Shown here in pieces: positions 5,950-59,530 of a DNA stretch of 64,000 nt (its first letter is position 1; each line of letters begins with the position of its first letter). A model generated the notes under the pieces. The model worked only from the letters and a program-made list of their open reading frames with translations, had not been told where the DNA came from and searched no databases. Origin of the DNA: Thermoleptolyngbya sichuanensis A183 (GTDB taxonomy: Bacteria > Cyanobacteriota > Cyanobacteriia > Elainellales > Elainellaceae); contig NZ_CP053661.1 of the NCBI RefSeq assembly GCF_013177315.1, positions 3,410,001-3,474,000 on the forward strand. Reading direction: 5' to 3'. The position numbers and the translations under genes are program-made.

Positions 5950-7806
5950 ATGAGGTCAACGTTTGAAAAGTTTGAAAAGTTTGAAAAGTTTGAAGAGTTT
6001 GAGCTGAATCATTTTTCCACAGGGGTTAAACAAGCCGAAGGACATCGGTCGCAGATCCAGCCGTCGCCTGCTAAGTCCTTCTGGCAAACGCTGATGCTGG
6101 GTATGGCGCTGATGACTGGGGGCATGGCGTGGGCCGGGTTGGGGACGTTGGCGCTAGCCTTGCAGAGCGATATCGCCAACGCCTCCGAACTTCCAGTCTC
6201 CGAACTTCCAGTCTCCGAAATTCCAGTCTCCGAAATTCCAGCAAGCGAACTCGCTGGAAGCAATCTGTCCGAATACAGCCTGGATACTCCGGCAAGTGCT
6301 GTCAGCCTGACCACACTCGACCAGCTTTCGGAATATGGCGGCGAAAACCGAGGCGACGGCAACATGGCCCAGGTCACGTCTGTCACCGAGTTTTCTGACG
6401 TTAGCCCCGGCGACTGGGCCTACGAAGCCCTCGCCTATCTCGCAAATTCCGAGAGCCAGGGTGGTTTGGACTGTCTGGAGGGCTACCCCAACGGCACCTA
6501 CCTGGGCGGACGAGCCATGACCCGCTACGAATTCGCCGCAGGTCTAGCGTCCTGTCTAGATGCAGTCGTGGGACGGCTGGAAAGCCTCGACCCCGAAGCT
6601 CTGGCCCGCATCGAAGCGCTCCAGCGAGAGTTTGCGTCTGAACTCGCCGCCCTGCGCGGCCGGGTCGATGCCCTCGAGGCCGCCGTCGAAGAACTGCAAG
6701 CGAACCAGTTCTCCACTACCACCACCCTCTTTGGTGAAACCATCTTTTCCATTGCCGACATTTTTGGCAGCAACGTAGACGATGCCAATAGCACCGTCTT
6801 CCAGGCCCGCGTCCGCCTCAACTTCAATACCAGCTTTACGGGTCAAGACCTGCTGAATACCCGTCTTCAGTTCTCCAACCTGGAGTTTTTTAACCTGGGA
6901 GACAACGGACTGCCCGACAGTTTTACGGCTGGCAATGTTGTGCCGATGGCGACGTTTCCCAACCCCTACTTGCGGCAAACTTCGCCCTACTATTTCTTTG
7001 GCACTAACAACTTCGACGTAACCCGCCTGTTCTATGCTTTTCCGGTGGGGAACCTGCGCGTCACGCTGGCGGCTACGGGCACAGGCATTACCGATATCGT
7101 CTCCAGCATTAGCCCCATCGATGCAGGCGGCTACGGCTCCATCAGTTTTCTGGCCTATAACCCGATCTACGATGCGGGTGCGCCCAGTTCTGGTATTGGT
7201 TTAACCTACGACTTTAGCGACACCTTCCAGATTGGTGTAGGTTATCTGACGGGCTTTGGCCAGGGCAATCCGTCTCCTGGCTTTGGGCTGTTCAACGGGG
7301 GCTATTCTCTGTTTGGGCAACTCACCTTCCGGCCGGGGCCCCTGTCGATTGGTCTGATCTATCTCAACGGGTATAACAACCTGGAGTCGAGCGGTTTGCC
7401 CGCCGCCGTGACCAACCAGTACGGCATTACCATCAACTACGCGCTGTCGGATACCTTCAACATCGGAGCCTGGTTTAACTATGAAGACGGCATCCTGATT
7501 GGAACGGCGGATTATCGCTCGGTGGCCTATGCGGGCTATCTGGCGATTAACGACTTGGGCGGGCCCAATAACCAGCTTGTTTTGGCAGCAGGGGTGCCGC
7601 CTCGCATTTCTGACTACGAAATCGGCAGCACTCGCATCGGCGCGTTTATTGACGATGCTGCGTTTTCAGCAGAGCTTTCGTACCGCATTAGCTTTAGCGA
7701 CAATATCTCGCTGACTCCAGGCATCATCTGGACGGCTGACCCCGGCAACAACAACGACAATAGCGACACCTTCCTGGGTGTGCTTCGCACGACGTTCTAT
7801 TTCTAG
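5950..7806 (+). CDS. SLH-domain outer-membrane porin (iron-uptake/OprB-like cyanobacterial porin)
   Basis: 618-aa precursor. After a charged N-terminal tail, a hydrophobic segment (about 43-70, MLGMALMTGGMAWAGLGTLA) serves as signal sequence. An SLH domain follows at about 148-205 (FSDVSPGDWAYEALAYLANS ... GYPNGTYLGGRAMTRYEFAA), then a coiled coil (about 210-250, ALARIEALQREFASELAALR). The rest is a beta barrel ending in an aromatic residue (TTFYF), the usual outer-membrane assembly signal. This SLH-coil-barrel layout is the cyanobacterial porin family, in which SLH binds pectin-like peptidoglycan decoration and the barrel conducts small solutes or ions. Two in-frame DNA repeats are odd: five 9-bp units giving FEKFEKFEKFEEFE at the extreme N terminus, and 15-bp units giving the ELPVS/EIPVS series at about 79-98. 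The first array lies ahead of the hydrophobic segment, so the true start could be internal, but no better RBS-ATG was found. Confidence 0.88.
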   Translation: MRSTFEKFEKFEKFEEFELNHFSTGVKQAEGHRSQIQPSPAKSFWQTLMLGMALMTGGMAWAGLGTLALALQSDIANASELPVSELPVSEIPVSEIPASELAGSNLSEYSLDTPASAVSLTTLDQLSEYGGENRGDGNMAQVTSVTEFSDVSPGDWAYEALAYLANSESQGGLDCLEGYPNGTYLGGRAMTRYEFAAGLASCLDAVVGRLESLDPEALARIEALQREFASELAALRGRVDALEAAVEELQANQFSTTTTLFGETIFSIADIFGSNVDDANSTVFQARVRLNFNTSFTGQDLLNTRLQFSNLEFFNLGDNGLPDSFTAGNVVPMATFPNPYLRQTSPYYFFGTNNFDVTRLFYAFPVGNLRVTLAATGTGITDIVSSISPIDAGGYGSISFLAYNPIYDAGAPSSGIGLTYDFSDTFQIGVGYLTGFGQGNPSPGFGLFNGGYSLFGQLTFRPGPLSIGLIYLNGYNNLESSGLPAAVTNQYGITINYALSDTFNIGAWFNYEDGILIGTADYRSVAYAGYLAINDLGGPNNQLVLAAGVPPRISDYEIGSTRIGAFIDDAAFSAELSYRISFSDNISLTPGIIWTADPGNNNDNSDTFLGVLRTTFYF

Positions 7807-7860: not shown

Positions 7861-8039
7861 GTTGAGGTGCTGACTGCCTGACACATCTCTGGAAACCCCT
7901 GATTTCTCGTAGGGGACGCTGGCCCAAAAGCTCCTCTGACCAAGCCCTCCGGCTCCAACTCAGGAGCTATGGGCTTCGATCCCAAGACAACGAATTTTCT
8001 GGGCTTTCGGGACTTGTGTCAGGCAACCAGGTTGAGGTG
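7861..8039 (-). mobile_element. 161-bp MITE, copy A, with 9-bp target duplication
   Basis: Element body 7870-8030. Its ends read CTGACTGCCTGACACATCTC and, as reverse complement of the other end, CTGGTTGCCTGACACAAGTC: 16 of 20 positions match, with TGCCTGACACA identical. The 9-bp sequence GTTGAGGTG flanks it on both sides (7861-7869 and 8031-8039), a textbook target-site duplication. It encodes no transposase. The interior is nearly identical to copies at 56220-56380 and 59361-59521, which lie in the opposite orientation. It was inserted directly behind the porin gene. Confidence 0.93.
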
Positions 8040-15813: not shown

Positions 15814-17344
15814 TCCTTCGCTTTAGTTTGGACTAACTGGCATCACAATAATGCTCAACAGGATGCCATAAAGAATCTGCTCAACCGTTCATAACAGTTG
15901 AACTTAAGGAATTGGATACAATCCTGCTCGCAGTTAAGCTGCTGTTGCAACCGGACTGTTCAGGGATTGTTCGGATGTCTTGCGTTTCGAGGCTCGTTTT
16001 TTGACCATCGGATAGCAGGGACGAGGAGTTGGCTTGTGCCCCTTGCCTCGTCCTGGCGATTTACCACGAGGTTTAGGCGCAGGAGCAGGGGTGCCAATCG
16101 CTGCCAAAATGCCTGCAAACGCTTGTGCGACCCGACCCGGAGTCAACGTTTCTTGCGGTGCCTGCCAGGGCAAGGGGTGGTCAGTACAGTCCTTTCGCGC
16201 TAACCACAACTGCCAACTGAGCAACGGCATCAGGCTGCTCCACTGTTCGGTTGCCGATACAGAACTGAACTGGGGATGTGTCCAATATAGCCTCTGCTTG
16301 GCAAAGCGATACCAGTGTTCAATGGCAAAGCGACGGAGGTAGTGCAACCACAGGGTTTCTAACGGAGGCATCTGCTCACCCAGCCAAACTAACCACAAAG
16401 GAGCCAAGCGTCGCGTGCTGCTCTGTGTCTCCAGCACCTCCACGCGCAACACTTCCATTGCCCGTTTGGGGGATTTGCGGAAATGGTATGCACTCCAACG
16501 ACTGACCCGCACTCGTCCCCAGTTGGGATCATCGACTTCAACGGTTTCGACCGGGACACTCCAAGTGTCAGGGTCATTGAGTTTCATCTTATGTCCATGC
16601 TTGGCAGGTGCGCCTCGCCCACGATACGCTGGGGGCGCGCCATAGACACATCGATTGGATGTAACCCGCAGCAGCAAGTCTGCCTCAATCCCTGCCGTTT
16701 GGTTGACAAAACTGGCATTGCCGTACCCTCGGTCGTAGATCGCCAACGGACGCACCGCTAACTGCCGAGTCACTTGTTTGAGTTGGAATGCCGCTTTACT
16801 GGCGGGTGTTTCAAAGCTGGTGATGCGCTCATGCCGCAATGGTAATGCCCAACTGCCCCTGTCTTCAGCAATCCAGGCTAAGGTACTGTAGTTTTGTCCG
16901 GCTATCGGGGCATGTCCTGTTCTGCCTGATAAGGTGCGGTCTTTCAAACGCCTGGCAGCAGGACGGTTCCACCGACTCGCATCACCTGCCAACAACGGTT
17001 GCTGCTGAGTCGGTATCTGCTGCACCAACAGCTTCAGCACCTTTGATCGGGGTAGGCGGCTATCGCGCAACGCTTCATAGGTGCTCGACCACTGGCGACG
17101 AAAGACAGGACTCTGCGATAGCCTCACAAACGACACGATGCACGCACTCACTAACACGGCATCCATCAGATCAAACAGGGCATCTCTGGCGTTTCCCAAG
17201 CTGGCATACAACGTTTGGCGAAATTGCTGAAGTTCGTTGAAAATCATGGGGTCAATGTTGGTTGTACTTCATTGACCTTACGGCAGTCGGTGCTTCTCAT
17301 TGACTGCCTTCCTCTTCACCATTAGTCCAAACTAAAGTCCTTCG
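15814..17344 (-). mobile_element. Complete insertion sequence, 1517 bp, with 7-bp target duplication
   Basis: Body 15821-17337. The ends are the 16-bp perfect inverted repeat CTTTAGTTTGGACTAA. TCCTTCG is duplicated at 15814-15820 and 17338-17344. One transposase gene fills the element. It interrupts a TPR protein gene. Because the ends and duplication are intact, and the host frame is restored by removing the IS plus one duplication copy, the insertion appears recent. Confidence 0.95.
15934..17247 (-). CDS. DDE transposase (IS4/IS701-like superfamily, NF041680-type)
   Basis: 437-aa transposase of the interrupting element. The N terminus (MIFNELQQFRQTLYASLGNA ... DALFDLMDAVL) and SQSPVFRRQWSSTYEALRDS match a family common in cyanobacteria that I recall as NF041680. 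Probable catalytic acids: first Asp in LLAGDASRWNRPA, second Asp in LAIYDRGYGNASFV, Glu in RRFAIEHWYRFAKQRLYW. The C terminus is basic (KPRGKSPGRGKGHKPTPRP), likely for DNA contact. The frame is full length and uninterrupted, so the element may still be active. Family placement is from memory of sequence patterns; the DDE assignment is inferred. Confidence 0.88.
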   Translation of the reverse strand: MIFNELQQFRQTLYASLGNARDALFDLMDAVLVSACIVSFVRLSQSPVFRRQWSSTYEALRDSRLPRSKVLKLLVQQIPTQQQPLLAGDASRWNRPAARRLKDRTLSGRTGHAPIAGQNYSTLAWIAEDRGSWALPLRHERITSFETPASKAAFQLKQVTRQLAVRPLAIYDRGYGNASFVNQTAGIEADLLLRVTSNRCVYGAPPAYRGRGAPAKHGHKMKLNDPDTWSVPVETVEVDDPNWGRVRVSRWSAYHFRKSPKRAMEVLRVEVLETQSSTRRLAPLWLVWLGEQMPPLETLWLHYLRRFAIEHWYRFAKQRLYWTHPQFSSVSATEQWSSLMPLLSWQLWLARKDCTDHPLPWQAPQETLTPGRVAQAFAGILAAIGTPAPAPKPRGKSPGRGKGHKPTPRPCYPMVKKRASKRKTSEQSLNSPVATAA

Positions 17345-27293: not shown

Positions 27294-27383
27294 AGGACTT
27301 ACGCACTTGCGATAAACTTGCTGGGTTTCGCACGATTTCTCGCGGGCGCAGCCCGCGAGAAATCGTCCAACTTCGTAAGTCCT
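27294..27383. repeat. AGGACTTACG inverted-repeat element with internal hairpin, copy 1
   Basis: Ends AGGACTTACG and CGTAAGTCCT. The interior contains a 15-bp perfect stem (CGATTTCTCGCGGGC, 27333-27347) with loop GCA. No coding capacity. Related copies at 38918-39006 and 45748-45837 suggest a small non-autonomous family. No clear target duplication. Confidence 0.8.
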
Positions 27384-27427
27384 AGTTATGTCAATTTTAG
27401 GTTTTGGCTTGGGGATGGGTCGTCCAA

Positions 27428-28732: not shown

Positions 28733-29176
28733 ATGCATCACGCTTCAATTCGCACTGCCGATATCTTTCGGGCGATCGCCTTTTATGAGCGGCTGGGCTT
28801 CACGGTGTGCGAGCGGTTCACGGCGGGCATCACGCTGGGCTGCTGGATGGAGGGACTAGGCGGACGCATCGAGCTATTGCAGGTGCCCCAGCCCAGGGCC
28901 GCAGCAGATGCCTTTGGGGATGAGCATTACACGGGTTACTATCACCTATCGTTTGACCTGACGGAAGCAGTCGAGAGTTTGCCGGACTGGCTGGAACATT
29001 TGCAGCAAGATTTTGCCCAGGCGGCCGCCGCAGGCGAGGGCGATGCGCTGAAGGTGCTGCTGGAGCCGACGCAGCAGATGATCGGCGATCGCATCTACGA
29101 AGTCGCGTTTGTGGCAGATTCCGACGGGTTGCCGCTGGAGTTTATCCGGGTGCTGGGGGAACGGGGAGGCGCATAG
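28733..29176 (+). CDS. VOC/glyoxalase superfamily protein
   Basis: 147-aa protein with vicinal-oxygen-chelate fold: HHASIRTADIFRAIAFYERL at the N terminus, then GYYHLSFDLTEAVESLPDWL and VAFVADSDGLPLEFIRVLG. Metal ligands could be His2 or His3, His in YYHLSF and Glu in PLEFI. Substrate unknown. It sits 12 bp behind the TIGR02652 gene on the same strand and overlaps the 3' end of the convergent caspase-WD40 gene by 82 bp. Confidence 0.8.
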   Translation: MHHASIRTADIFRAIAFYERLGFTVCERFTAGITLGCWMEGLGGRIELLQVPQPRAAADAFGDEHYTGYYHLSFDLTEAVESLPDWLEHLQQDFAQAAAAGEGDALKVLLEPTQQMIGDRIYEVAFVADSDGLPLEFIRVLGERGGA

Positions 29177-38917: not shown

Positions 38918-39006
38918 GGACTTACGCACTTGCGATAAGCTCCTTGGGGTTTGGACAATTTCTGGTGGGATGTGCCCGCGAGAAATTGTCCAACTGCGTA
39001 AGTCCT
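38918..39006. repeat. AGGACTTACG inverted-repeat element, copy 2
   Basis: Starts GGACTTACGCACTTGCGATA and ends GCGTAAGTCC, with internal ACAATTTCT...AGAAATTGT pairing. Lies 35 bp behind galE. A half copy (TGGCTTACGCACTTAGACTAG) also occurs near 52638. Confidence 0.78.
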
Positions 39007-39223
39007 AATAGGGTTCATCAGGTTTCCAGAAGCAGATCCCAACGTCTTTGAAGCCAGATTGCGATAAATCCACTCGGCAACCCGGTATTCTAAGCAGCAA
39101 GGGGCCAATGACAGTTTGAGTGATGCCACTCGGAGCGATCGCCCTTCGAGTGGTGATTTTTATGCTTCTGTGATTTTTATGCTTCTGGATTGACATCTGT
39201 GTTGACATGAGGGCGATCGCCAG

Positions 39224-39383
39224 GAGCTTGAGCCGTTGAGCCAGCAGCTTGAGCCAGCAGTTTGAGCCAGCAGCTTGAGCCAGCAGATTGAGCCAACAGC
39301 TTGAGCCAGCAGCTTGAACCAGCAGATTGAGCCAACAGCTTGAGCCAGCAGCTTGAACCAACAGATTGAACCAACAGACTGAA
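39224..39383. repeat. 13-bp tandem repeat array (about 12 units)
   Basis: Unit CTTGAGCCAGCAG with A/C/T at position 1 and GCC/ACC and GCAG/ACAG variants. Because 13 is not a multiple of three, all minus-strand frames read a 39-bp/13-residue repeat (for example GSSCWLKLLAQ). These frames are repeat artefacts, not genes. The array sits 10 bp before the start of the 107-aa gene. Confidence 0.9.
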
Positions 39384-39394
39384 TAGACAAATCG

Positions 39395-39718
39395 GTGTGG
39401 GAGCCTGTGAAGTATTTTTTTCTATCGGATGGTTGGACGGTGGGGCGCGTGTGGGAATTTGGCGGGCTGTGGGATGAGCGGGCCTGGCGGCGACCGCCCC
39501 ATATCCAGCGGATGCAGCTCTCTATCGTGGAGCGGGGCGAGCGCCTCTGGCTGCACCAGGTCGAAGAGTCGGTACTGATGGTAGAAGTCTGTCCATCGCC
39601 TACGATCCAAGCAGACGGATCAAGTGCATCGATTGGGCAAGTCGTGCTAAAGCGGCTGATCACGGCAGAACAGGTGTTAGAACTGTTGTGTGGAGCCGAT
39701 CTGGAGGCAAAATCCTAG
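39395..39718 (+). CDS. Conserved cyanobacterial hypothetical protein
   Basis: 107-aa basic, Trp-rich protein: MWEPVKYFFLSDGWTVGRVW and EFGGLWDERAWRRPPHIQRM, then IVERGERLWLHQVEESVLMV. I recognise this N-terminal pattern as recurrent in cyanobacteria, without a known role. No signal peptide or membrane segment. It starts at GTG 39395 immediately after the 13-bp repeat array. A 10-bp repeat (TGCGGTCAAC) follows its stop. Confidence 0.65.
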   Translation: MWEPVKYFFLSDGWTVGRVWEFGGLWDERAWRRPPHIQRMQLSIVERGERLWLHQVEESVLMVEVCPSPTIQADGSSASIGQVVLKRLITAEQVLELLCGADLEAKS

Positions 39719-45747: not shown

Positions 45748-45837
45748 AGGACTTATGCACTAGCCATCCGTGTTCTGGACTTTGGCGGATTTCTCGCGGA
45801 TGCAGCCCGTGAGAAATCTGCCAACTGCCTCAATCCT
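45748..45837. repeat. AGGACTTACG-type element, degenerate copy 3
   Basis: Begins AGGACTTATGCACTAGCC; the interior GATTTCTCGCGGATGCAGCC pairs imperfectly with GTGAGAAATC, and it ends CAACTGCCTCAATCCT. Clearly related to copies at 27294 and 38918 but decayed. Confidence 0.65.
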
Positions 45838-45890
45838 GCTCAACCTAAAATAGAGGCATTGCCACACCGTCGCGCCGCTGAGTATTTTGC

Positions 45891-47760: not shown

Positions 47761-47934
47761 ATCGGGCACCCTGGTTGACTGACAAAACTCGAATCACCCT
47801 CGCCCCAACCCCTCTCTCAAAGCGGGAGAGGGGCTTCAAACCCAGTTCTAAACTCCGGCTCCCCTTCTCCCTTTTTGGGAGAAGGGGTTGGGGGATGAGG
47901 GAAAAAGATTTGTCAGTCAACCAGATCGGGCACC
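47761..47934. mobile_element. 154-bp MITE-like element (copy D) with 10-bp target duplication
   Basis: Body 47771-47924. Perfect 16-bp terminal inverted repeats CTGGTTGACTGACAAA / TTTGTCAGTCAACCAG. ATCGGGCACC is directly repeated at 47761-47770 and 47925-47934. The interior is a CCCTCTCTCAAAGCGGGAGA / CCCTTCTCCC-GGGAGAAGGGG palindromic repeat unrelated to the interior of copies A-C, but the terminal CTGGTTGNCTGACA is the same. No coding capacity. Confidence 0.93.
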
Positions 47935-56144: not shown

Positions 56145-56523
56145 GCTTTAACTCCTCTCTCTAACACCGTACTAATCAGAACTAATCAGATCTGGTACGG
56201 CTACAACTGTGTCTTGTCCCTGGTTGACTGACACAAGTCCCGAAAGCCCAGAAAATTCGTTGTCTTGGGATCGAAGCCCATAGCTCCTGAGTTGGAGCCG
56301 GAGGGCTTGGTCAGAGGAGCTTTTGGGCCAGCGTCCCCTACGAGAAATCAGGGGTTTCCAGAGATGTGTCAGGCAGTCAGGGCGATCCCTCCAGCGCGAT
56401 CGCCATTCTGTCTGGTATGACGTAGCAATGCATACTATAGCCTTACAGGCTACCAAGTCATGGGATGCTTTTGTGCAAGAAATTTCATTTTCTAGAACGC
56501 GAACTTTACAAAGCTGGGTGGCT
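56145..56523. other. Intergenic region with MITE copy B
   Basis: 379 bp between two minus-strand genes. Apart from the MITE (56220-56380), nothing gene-like is present. The promoter for the sulfotransferase operon must lie in or beside the MITE. Confidence 0.6.
56220..56380 (+). mobile_element. 161-bp MITE, copy B
   Basis: Same 161-bp length and nearly identical interior as copies A and C. Left end CTGGTTGACTGACACAAGTC, right end (reverse complement) CTGACTGCCTGACACATCTC. Flanks GTCTTGTCC and GGCGATCCC do not match, so no target duplication remains. This copy is older or has undergone flank exchange. Confidence 0.9.
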
Positions 56524-57780: not shown

Positions 57781-59292
57781 TCAGCGCATATCATAGCCAA
57801 ACAGATTGGGGTCTACCTCTTCCAGATTCAGGTCAGCGAGGCCATATTCAGCCCAGCGGCGCGACACCAAATCCGCCGTGTCGGGGTCGGGGTCTAGCTG
57901 CTTACCCCAGGGGCGATCGCTCTCTGGGTAGATCTTGGTGGTCGCGTCGATGCCCATTTTGCTGCCCAGACCCGGGCGCTCGGTGGCAAAGTCCAGCGAG
58001 TCGAAGGGGTTATCCGGCAGAATGAACACATCCCGCGCTGGGTCCACCTTTGACGTAATCGACCAGACCACCTGGCGCGGATCGCGGACATTGATATCTT
58101 TGTCCACCACCACCACAAATTTCGTATAGCTAAACTGCGGCAGCGCACTCCAAAACGCCAGCGCCGCCCGCCGCGCCTGCCCCGGATAGGATTTGTCAAT
58201 CGACAGCACGGCCACCTTATAGCTCAAGCCCTCCATCGGCAAGAAAAAGTCCACAATTTCCGGCACCTGTTGGCGCAAAATGGGCGTATAAATCCGGTTT
58301 AGCGCCAGTGCCATCATTGCGTCTTCCTTGGGCGGGCGACCGCTGAAGGCGGTGAGATAAATCGGATTTTTGCGGTGGGTCATGCAGTGGAAGCGGATCA
58401 GCGGGCCGTTGGGGTTTGCAGGGCCGTAGTAGCCCATGTGGTCGCCTGCCGGGCCGTCCATCGCCACCTCGCCGGGAGTAATCGTACCCTCCAGCACAAA
58501 TTCTGAATCGGCGGGCACTTCCAAGTCCACCGTCTTGCACTTGGCCAGATGCACGCCGCCGCCGCCGTAGAGGCCAGCAAAGAGCCACTCCGACATGTCG
58601 ATGGGCAGGGGAGTTGCGGCCGCCATCACGAGCATCGGGTCTACCCCAAGGGCGATCGCCACCTCCAGCGTTTCGCCCCGCTCGGCCGCCTTCCGCAAAT
58701 GCCGCGTTGCGCCGCGCACCGAGAGCCACTGCACCGTCATCGTGTTTTTGGATTGCAGTTGGAGGCGATATACGCCCACGTTCACAATTTTGTTTTCAGG
58801 GTCTTTGGTAATCATCAGCCCCAGCGTGATCACCTTGCCCGCGTCGCCCGGATACACCCGCAGCAGTGGCAGCTTAGTCAGATCTACCTCGTCGCCCTTC
58901 AGCACCACCTGCTGACACGGCGGCAAAAGCTCGCGCATGGGCTTGGCCTTCACCACGTCAAACAGGGCCTTGCCCAAGTCAACCGCCTGAGAAATCTTCT
59001 TGGGCGGGCGGGGTTGATACAGCAGGGCCAGCTTTTTGCCCAGCGCTTCCAGTTCTTCGGGCTGCTCCATGTTCATTGCCCAACAGACGCGCTGCACCGT
59101 ACCCATCACGTTCACCGCAACGGGATACTCAGCCCCCTTCACGTTTTCAAACAGCAGGGCCGGGCCGCCGCTTTGCAGCAGGCGATTGGCAATTTCGGCA
59201 ATTTCCAGTTCGGGATCAACCAGCGCCGTAATGCGCCGCAACTGCCCCCGCTGCTCTAGCTGGTTCAAAAATCCCCGCAGATCTCGCGCCAT
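57781..59292 (-). CDS. ubiD: UbiD family decarboxylase
   Basis: 503-aa prenylated-FMN-dependent (de)carboxylase. ARDLRGFLNQLEQRGQLRRI is the family N terminus. PLLRVYPGDAGKVITLGLMI, NVGVYRLQLQSKNTMTVQWL, GPAGDHMGYYGPANPNGPLI and the E-x-x-R...E type acidic residues of the prFMN site (EFVLEGTITPGE) are present. It decarboxylates aromatic or alpha-beta unsaturated acids; in cyanobacteria plastoquinone synthesis is one candidate pathway. The cofactor needs a UbiX prenyltransferase, which is not in this window. The frame opens at 59328; the Met at 59292 (MARDLRGF) fits the family. MITE copy C sits 69 bp upstream. Confidence 0.95.
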   Translation of the reverse strand: MARDLRGFLNQLEQRGQLRRITALVDPELEIAEIANRLLQSGGPALLFENVKGAEYPVAVNVMGTVQRVCWAMNMEQPEELEALGKKLALLYQPRPPKKISQAVDLGKALFDVVKAKPMRELLPPCQQVVLKGDEVDLTKLPLLRVYPGDAGKVITLGLMITKDPENKIVNVGVYRLQLQSKNTMTVQWLSVRGATRHLRKAAERGETLEVAIALGVDPMLVMAAATPLPIDMSEWLFAGLYGGGGVHLAKCKTVDLEVPADSEFVLEGTITPGEVAMDGPAGDHMGYYGPANPNGPLIRFHCMTHRKNPIYLTAFSGRPPKEDAMMALALNRIYTPILRQQVPEIVDFFLPMEGLSYKVAVLSIDKSYPGQARRAALAFWSALPQFSYTKFVVVVDKDINVRDPRQVVWSITSKVDPARDVFILPDNPFDSLDFATERPGLGSKMGIDATTKIYPESDRPWGKQLDPDPDTADLVSRRWAEYGLADLNLEEVDPNLFGYDMR

Positions 59293-59351
59293 GATGAAGA
59301 ACTGTAACGTGTCTCCTCTCATTATCAACGAGATTGGGGCAGTAGTTTTGC

Positions 59352-59530
59352 GGTGCAGAGCTGGTTGCCTGACACAAGTCCCGAAAGCCCAGAAAATTCG
59401 TTGTCTTGGGATCGAAGCCCATAGCTCCTGAGTTGGAGCCGGAGGGCTTGGTCAGAGGAGCTTTTGGGCCAGCGTCCCCTACGAGAAATCAGGGGTTTCT
59501 AGAGATGTGTCAGGCAGTCAGGGTGCAGAG
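59352..59530 (+). mobile_element. 161-bp MITE, copy C, with 9-bp target duplication
   Basis: Body 59361-59521. Ends CTGGTTGCCTGACACAAGTC and (reverse complement) CTGACTGCCTGACACATCTC. GGTGCAGAG is directly repeated at 59352-59360 and 59522-59530. Differs from copy B by very few bases, so transposition is recent. It lies in the divergent gap between ubiD and the 128-aa gene and could alter both promoters. Confidence 0.95.

Follow-up and report, generated by a model that had tools for sequence, protein, structure and literature searches.

The 161-bp repeat present three times in the analysed DNA is a small transposable element that carries no gene and has undergone a recent spread across the chromosome of Thermoleptolyngbya sichuanensis A183. 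Comparison of its ends with those of a resident 1315-bp insertion sequence (IS) of the IS4 family indicates that the element, a MITE, is very probably moved in trans by the transposase of this IS. The IS is supported as helper by the matching ends, the target duplications, the near-identical copies, an empty site, and the presence of an intact partner on the same chromosome. The whole stretch of DNA analysed (64,000 nucleotides) is termed the window and corresponds to G000:C1:3410001-3474000 of the finished 5.53-Mb chromosome.

The 161-bp element in the window

The copies and their target duplications are located in the window as follows.

7861-7869, strandless: left target duplication of copy A, GTTGAGGTG
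7870-8030, + strand: MITE copy A, 161 bp, 63 bp past the stop codon of an OprB/SLH porin gene (5950-7806)
8031-8039, strandless: right target duplication of copy A, GTTGAGGTG
56220-56380, - strand: MITE copy B, 161 bp; no target duplication, and one extra change in the outer terminal repeat (CTGGTTGACTGACACA)
59352-59360, strandless: left target duplication of copy C, GGTGCAGAG
59361-59521, - strand: MITE copy C, 161 bp, 32 bp upstream of a UbiD-like gene (57781-59328, - strand)
59522-59530, strandless: right target duplication of copy C, GGTGCAGAG

These coordinates and lengths are those of the sequence-only reading that preceded this analysis, and the following further particulars were reproduced as well. 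Copies B and C, whose interiors were described there as near-identical, each differ from copy A by one base over the 161 bp; the terminal repeats match at 16 of 20 positions, the same count as before; and the 9-bp duplications claimed for A and C are exact, with none at B. Exact 9-mer pairs at the spacing of the element occur at five of 63,780 window positions, namely at copies A and C and at the consecutive positions 28909-28911. The unit is thus below 500 bp, gene-less, bounded by terminal inverted repeats, and present in near-identical copies with target duplications, the features by which a MITE is recognised.

Ends of the MITE type are confined in the window to the three MITEs and, with two mismatches, to a different 154-bp element, so no IS with these ends lies there, in agreement with the earlier claim that a matching transposase is lacking from the window. 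A transposase gene of the DDE_5 type is located at 15934-17247 (- strand).

Copies across the chromosome and the empty site of copy C

The sequence-only reading had suggested searching the whole genome for the 161-bp sequence and for an IS with the same ends, and both were recovered, the former in 21 near-identical copies and the latter in six intact copies of 1315 bp. Altogether 32 chromosome matches to the 161-bp element were found, of which the 21 are full length with 0-2 differences; 13 of the 21 are identical. Perfect 9-bp target duplications flank 17 of the 21 copies and a 10-bp duplication flanks one, while the remaining three (1044827, copy B at 3466220, and 2193224) have none. The homology stops exactly at the 161-bp boundaries, the flanks are unrelated, and the 9-mer pairs of the 17 copies differ from one another. 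Read on both strands, the targets tend to start with G (position 1) and to close with C (position 9); Y3/R7 and T2/A8 are favoured less strongly. A divergent copy at 4483678 (29 differences) is also flanked by a perfect 9-bp duplication, which indicates that mobility was not limited to a single sequence variant. Most of the copies examined are intergenic; two, at 3204880 and 2401554, break frames of about 302 and 280 codons, respectively, as judged from the joined-flank sequence.

Two identical copies of a shorter element have the same ends as the MITE and perfect 9-bp duplications, and they represent a second, shorter MITE subfamily of the 1315-bp IS.

G000:C1:2763125-2763207: 83-bp element
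G000:C1:4660818-4660900: 83-bp element

We also note that a CRISPR array (repeat CTTTCAAACCCATTTCCCCGCAAGGGGACTGAAAC) is flanked by two diverged MITE copies at G000:C1:5176500-5179000.

The comparison of empty sites, likewise proposed earlier, yielded the exact empty site of copy C in a genome of the same genus (G001), a draft that is 85% complete and has no match to the MITE. The copy C region is intact in G001 (C218) and aligned on both sides. G001 reads ...GTTTTGC-GGTGCAGAG-ATCCACACCC..., where the window reads ...GTTTTGC-GGTGCAGAG-[161 bp]-GGTGCAGAG-ATCCACACCC...; exactly 170 bp are absent, corresponding to the 161-bp element plus one 9-mer. The empty site is direct proof of insertion. Joined flanks from other MITE copies gave four partial matches in G001, copy C being the one case verified across the junction. 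This genome is also devoid of a close relative of the 1315-bp IS (best 36%); absence from G001 carries little weight because it is a draft of the stated completeness. Two outcomes had been named earlier as speaking against insertion, namely flanking 9-mers distributed inconsistently with it, and a lack of further copies and of matching IS ends; both were checked and neither was found.

The 1315-bp insertion sequence

The chromosome search for the MITE ends revealed pairs of ends spaced 1315 bp apart, outside the window. The IS that they delimit exists in six complete, practically identical copies and in further interrupted ones, and a 403-codon gene is intact in a single frame in all six. Its 403-aa product is hit by Pfam DDE_Tnp_1 and by the IS4 models of NCBIfam; for IS4_2 the score, 115.8, lies below the equivalog cut-off of 152. 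The IS4 family is defined by DDE residues together with the signature Y-(2)-R-(3)-E-(6)-K in region C1, and by the absence of a frameshift (PMC2266710). Residues D110 and D173, together with Y268, R271, E275 and K282, are invariant in an alignment of 8 homologues and the frame is uninterrupted, which places the 1315-bp IS in the IS4 family. The duplications, about 10 bp in that family, are 9 bp on the MITEs, and re-paired exact 9-mers are found at the IS flanks.

The right end of the IS is identical to the left end of the MITE over 19 bp (19/20 positions), and the left end of the IS corresponds to the right end of the MITE at 17 of 20 positions. The contrast of TCTY with AAGTS between the two ends is kept in the IS as in the MITE. 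The end consensus of the IS50 subgroup is CW------Y---CA-A--W- (PMC2266710), and all seven of its conserved positions are fitted by both IS ends and both MITE ends. Like the IS50 (Tn5) subgroup, the 1315-bp IS combines DDE and YREK residues, a single frame, the end consensus and direct repeats of 8-9 bp (PMC2266710). In contrast to that subgroup, listed at 1350-1550 bp, the IS is slightly too small and falls inside the IS10 range of 1200-1350 bp (PMC2266710); moreover, sequence and profile searches of solved structures with the 403-aa protein gave no meaningful match, the Tn5 transposase included. The size and the missing Tn5 match therefore place the IS in the IS4 family only, without a subgroup. 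The IS4/IS10-like transposition read from the window alone holds at the level of the family, as an IS with the predicted ends was found, along with its YREK transposase, 9-bp duplications and an empty site. The refinement is that the ends fit the IS50/Tn5-subgroup consensus, while the transposase is not assigned to a subgroup.

A ~1.8-kb element interrupts one copy of the IS at IS position 591 (G000:C1:1727000-1730800); its 441-aa gene resembles an IS110-type (DEDD) transposase by reading of the sequence. The same position-591 junction recurs at 3592663 and at 4640417/4012360.

Relatives in other genomes

Kaiparowitsia implicata (G016), which is in the same family as the host by kinship, possesses relatives of the MITE that are about 73-77% identical, in four full or nearly full copies and one chimeric copy. 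A related full-length element is present in Phormidium sp. FACHB-1136 (142/162 aligned positions), and a truncated or diverged relative in Leptolyngbya sp. ULC186bin1. Two other genomes contain elements with duplications of their own: a 162-bp element with the same ends and a 9-bp duplication in G026, and an 83-bp element, 74/83 identical to the 83-bp element of the host, with a 10-bp duplication in G032. These demonstrate that sister MITEs are mobile in other genera. Judged from such homologues, the MITE family is older than the burst in the host genome. No transposase closer than 38% to the 403-aa protein was found in K. implicata, which indicates that the MITE and its helper are not always together. 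On contig C100 of that genome (about 1193-1475), a left part of the MITE of about 80 bp is joined to unrelated palindromic DNA.

Proposed mode of movement and alternative explanations

In the proposed mechanism, the MITE terminal repeats of ~19 bp would be recognised by an IS4-family transposase; they enclose a non-coding, imperfectly palindromic interior that does not derive from the IS. The transposase of the resident 1315-bp IS would act in trans on these ends, excise the MITE, and paste it into a staggered target, which would produce the 9-bp (occasionally 10-bp) duplication with its G1/C9 preference. We infer that the resident IS, rather than a close relative since lost, is the mobiliser; the cut-and-paste chemistry is presumed by analogy with IS10/IS50. 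A mobile MITE with a different helper, either such a lost relative or a 1322-bp IS with ends CTGGTTGACTGACAAA, is an unlikely reading, though one with evidence to its name. The family occurs in K. implicata, where the closest transposase is only 38% identical, so other helpers are conceivable; it is spread across several genera and so predates the present IS copies; and the MITE right end, CTGGTTGCC, has CTGGTTG in common with the 1322-bp IS, a second IS of the genome that has ends two mismatches away and could contribute to MITE movement. Against this, the ends of the 1322-bp IS (...GACAAA) are two positions off every MITE end tried, and its transposase is broken into two reading frames in the copy read; recent activity demands intact, practically identical copies, and the 1315-bp IS has six of these. 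The notion that the three window copies arose by segmental duplication or recombination, with coincidental 9-mers, can draw on the two copies that lie 3.1 kb apart in the same orientation. It has practically no probability left, given the exact 161-bp limits of the homology, the unrelated flanks and the 17 different perfect 9-mer pairs, and it is refuted by the empty site with its single 9-mer.

A third reading, in which the repeat is kept for a hairpin in transcripts (serving as terminator, attenuator or small RNA), its mobility being of secondary importance, is very improbable. The MITE forms a single long, imperfect palindrome (DNA z-score -5.6), the entire unit folds as a single hairpin with RNA z-scores of -7.3 and -6.4 on the two strands, and the copies examined lie mostly between genes. 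In 12 diverged relatives the fold can still form 82.5% of its base pairs. Compensatory changes among these relatives are, nevertheless, no commoner than in shuffles (9 pairs observed against 9.3 expected), which provides no evidence of selection for a folded RNA; RNAalifold gave no covariation support, and the window has no Rfam match. A structural RNA was rejected on the missing compensatory-change signal and Rfam match. The two copies that break frames also oppose a role of this kind, and recent insertion accounts for the low divergence together with the duplications. Returning to transposition by the 1315-bp IS, alignment of the MITE with that IS is limited to the terminal 16-19 bp, and interior matches are at chance level. 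By this alignment, with IS homology confined to its ends, the element falls among the type II MITEs. Its derivation from the 1315-bp IS by internal deletion was considered and rejected, as no above-chance homology extends past the terminal 16-19 bp.

Re-paired 9-bp flanks and MITE-IS fusions

None of the six full-length 1315-bp IS copies has a target duplication of its own. Comparison of the outward 9-mers of all collected element ends yielded six exact pairs between distant elements, against about 0.003 expected among roughly 43 ends. The elements with re-paired 9-bp flanks are given by their positions.

G000:C1, re-paired IS elements: 1727342, 2100719, 2276138, 2561275, 3002200, 3592663, 3771248, 4390675, 1455897

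Both flanks of the IS at 3771248-3772562 pair with both flanks of an old 468-bp remnant at 1455897-1456364, and a further pair is formed by the right flank at 2102033 and the left one at 3592663. The pair formed by 2561275 and 1730460 (CTTACGCAC) may be coincidental because the same 9-mer is part of the terminal sequence of a different repeat family. No partner flank for the lost duplication of copy B was found among all collected element ends. We read the re-paired flanks as the apparent trace of a chromosome rearranged by recombination or end-swapping between IS copies. That the MITEs mostly kept their duplications fits with homologous recombination working poorly on a 161-bp sequence, or just with a younger age. 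The contrast between these short elements and the 1.3-kb IS copies, which have swapped theirs, constitutes a readable record of the elements that served as substrates for genome rearrangement.

Four truncated MITEs end at position 105, each joined directly to an IS or MITE end. The partners fused to MITE bases 1-105 are as follows.

1727342: full IS
2276138: full IS
4640417: interrupted IS
1044987: full MITE

In the three fusions examined, the partner is not followed by MITE bases 106-161. Two of the four truncated MITEs carry the change G104A, which indicates that they have a common history. The 9-bp flank on the left of the fused MITE at 1727237 forms an exact pair with that on the right of the IS at 4391989; this is suggestive of a MITE-IS fusion that transposed in one piece before recombining with a further copy of the IS. 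It is conceivable, though on balance doubtful, that MITE 1-105 together with a complete IS or MITE forms a joint mobile unit, which would use the left end of the MITE and the right end of the partner, with the interior site GCTATGGGC as a preferred target. If such joint units are real, the MITE donates ends to new composite transposons, and the swapped 9-bp duplications record the resulting rearrangements.

Relation to known elements

The MIC231 cassettes of Bacillus cereus are non-autonomous elements with the ends of an IS4-family IS (IS231-type) and carry passenger genes. The 161-bp element resembles them in being non-autonomous and in having the ends of an IS4-family IS, while it is gene-less, in contrast to MIC231 with its passenger genes and IS231-type ends. 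Among cyanobacterial MITEs, Nezha is reportedly active (Zhou et al. 2008, as cited in PMC10969869), and the likeness, that of an active cyanobacterial MITE, is by description only. The papers searched for cyanobacterial literature gave no account of this MITE or of the 1315-bp IS. In common with the type II prokaryotic MITEs that have been reviewed (PMC10969869), the element is shorter than 500 bp, has inverted ends, duplications at young copies, no gene and a stem-loop interior, and shares only its ends with an IS. The 161-bp family does not differ from these in kind and adds a new, well-documented example to an ordinary class of mobile DNA; the probable helper, the duplication and an empty site are all identified here for a single family. 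The likely helper, duplication size, target preference and precise empty site of one MITE family are thereby available in one finished chromosome, which renders trans transposition by an IS4-family enzyme with Tn5-like ends directly testable.

Other repeats in the window

The 154-bp MITE-like element (window 47771-47924) has perfect 16-bp ends, those of the 1322-bp IS4-family IS located at 1205834-1207155 and 1680005-1681326, and a 10-bp duplication (ATCGGGCACC). Sequence matching the interior of this element (bases 26-135) recurs at about 40 other places in the chromosome, which are end-less except for one 81% full-length relative, as though IS ends had come to enclose a widespread palindromic repeat. 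Another MITE family is probably represented by a 90-nt repeat with ends GGACTTACGCA...GTAAGTCC (window 27295-27384, 38918-39007 and 45749-45838). A 13-bp tandem repeat (TTGAGCCAGCAGC) occupies window 39210-39408.
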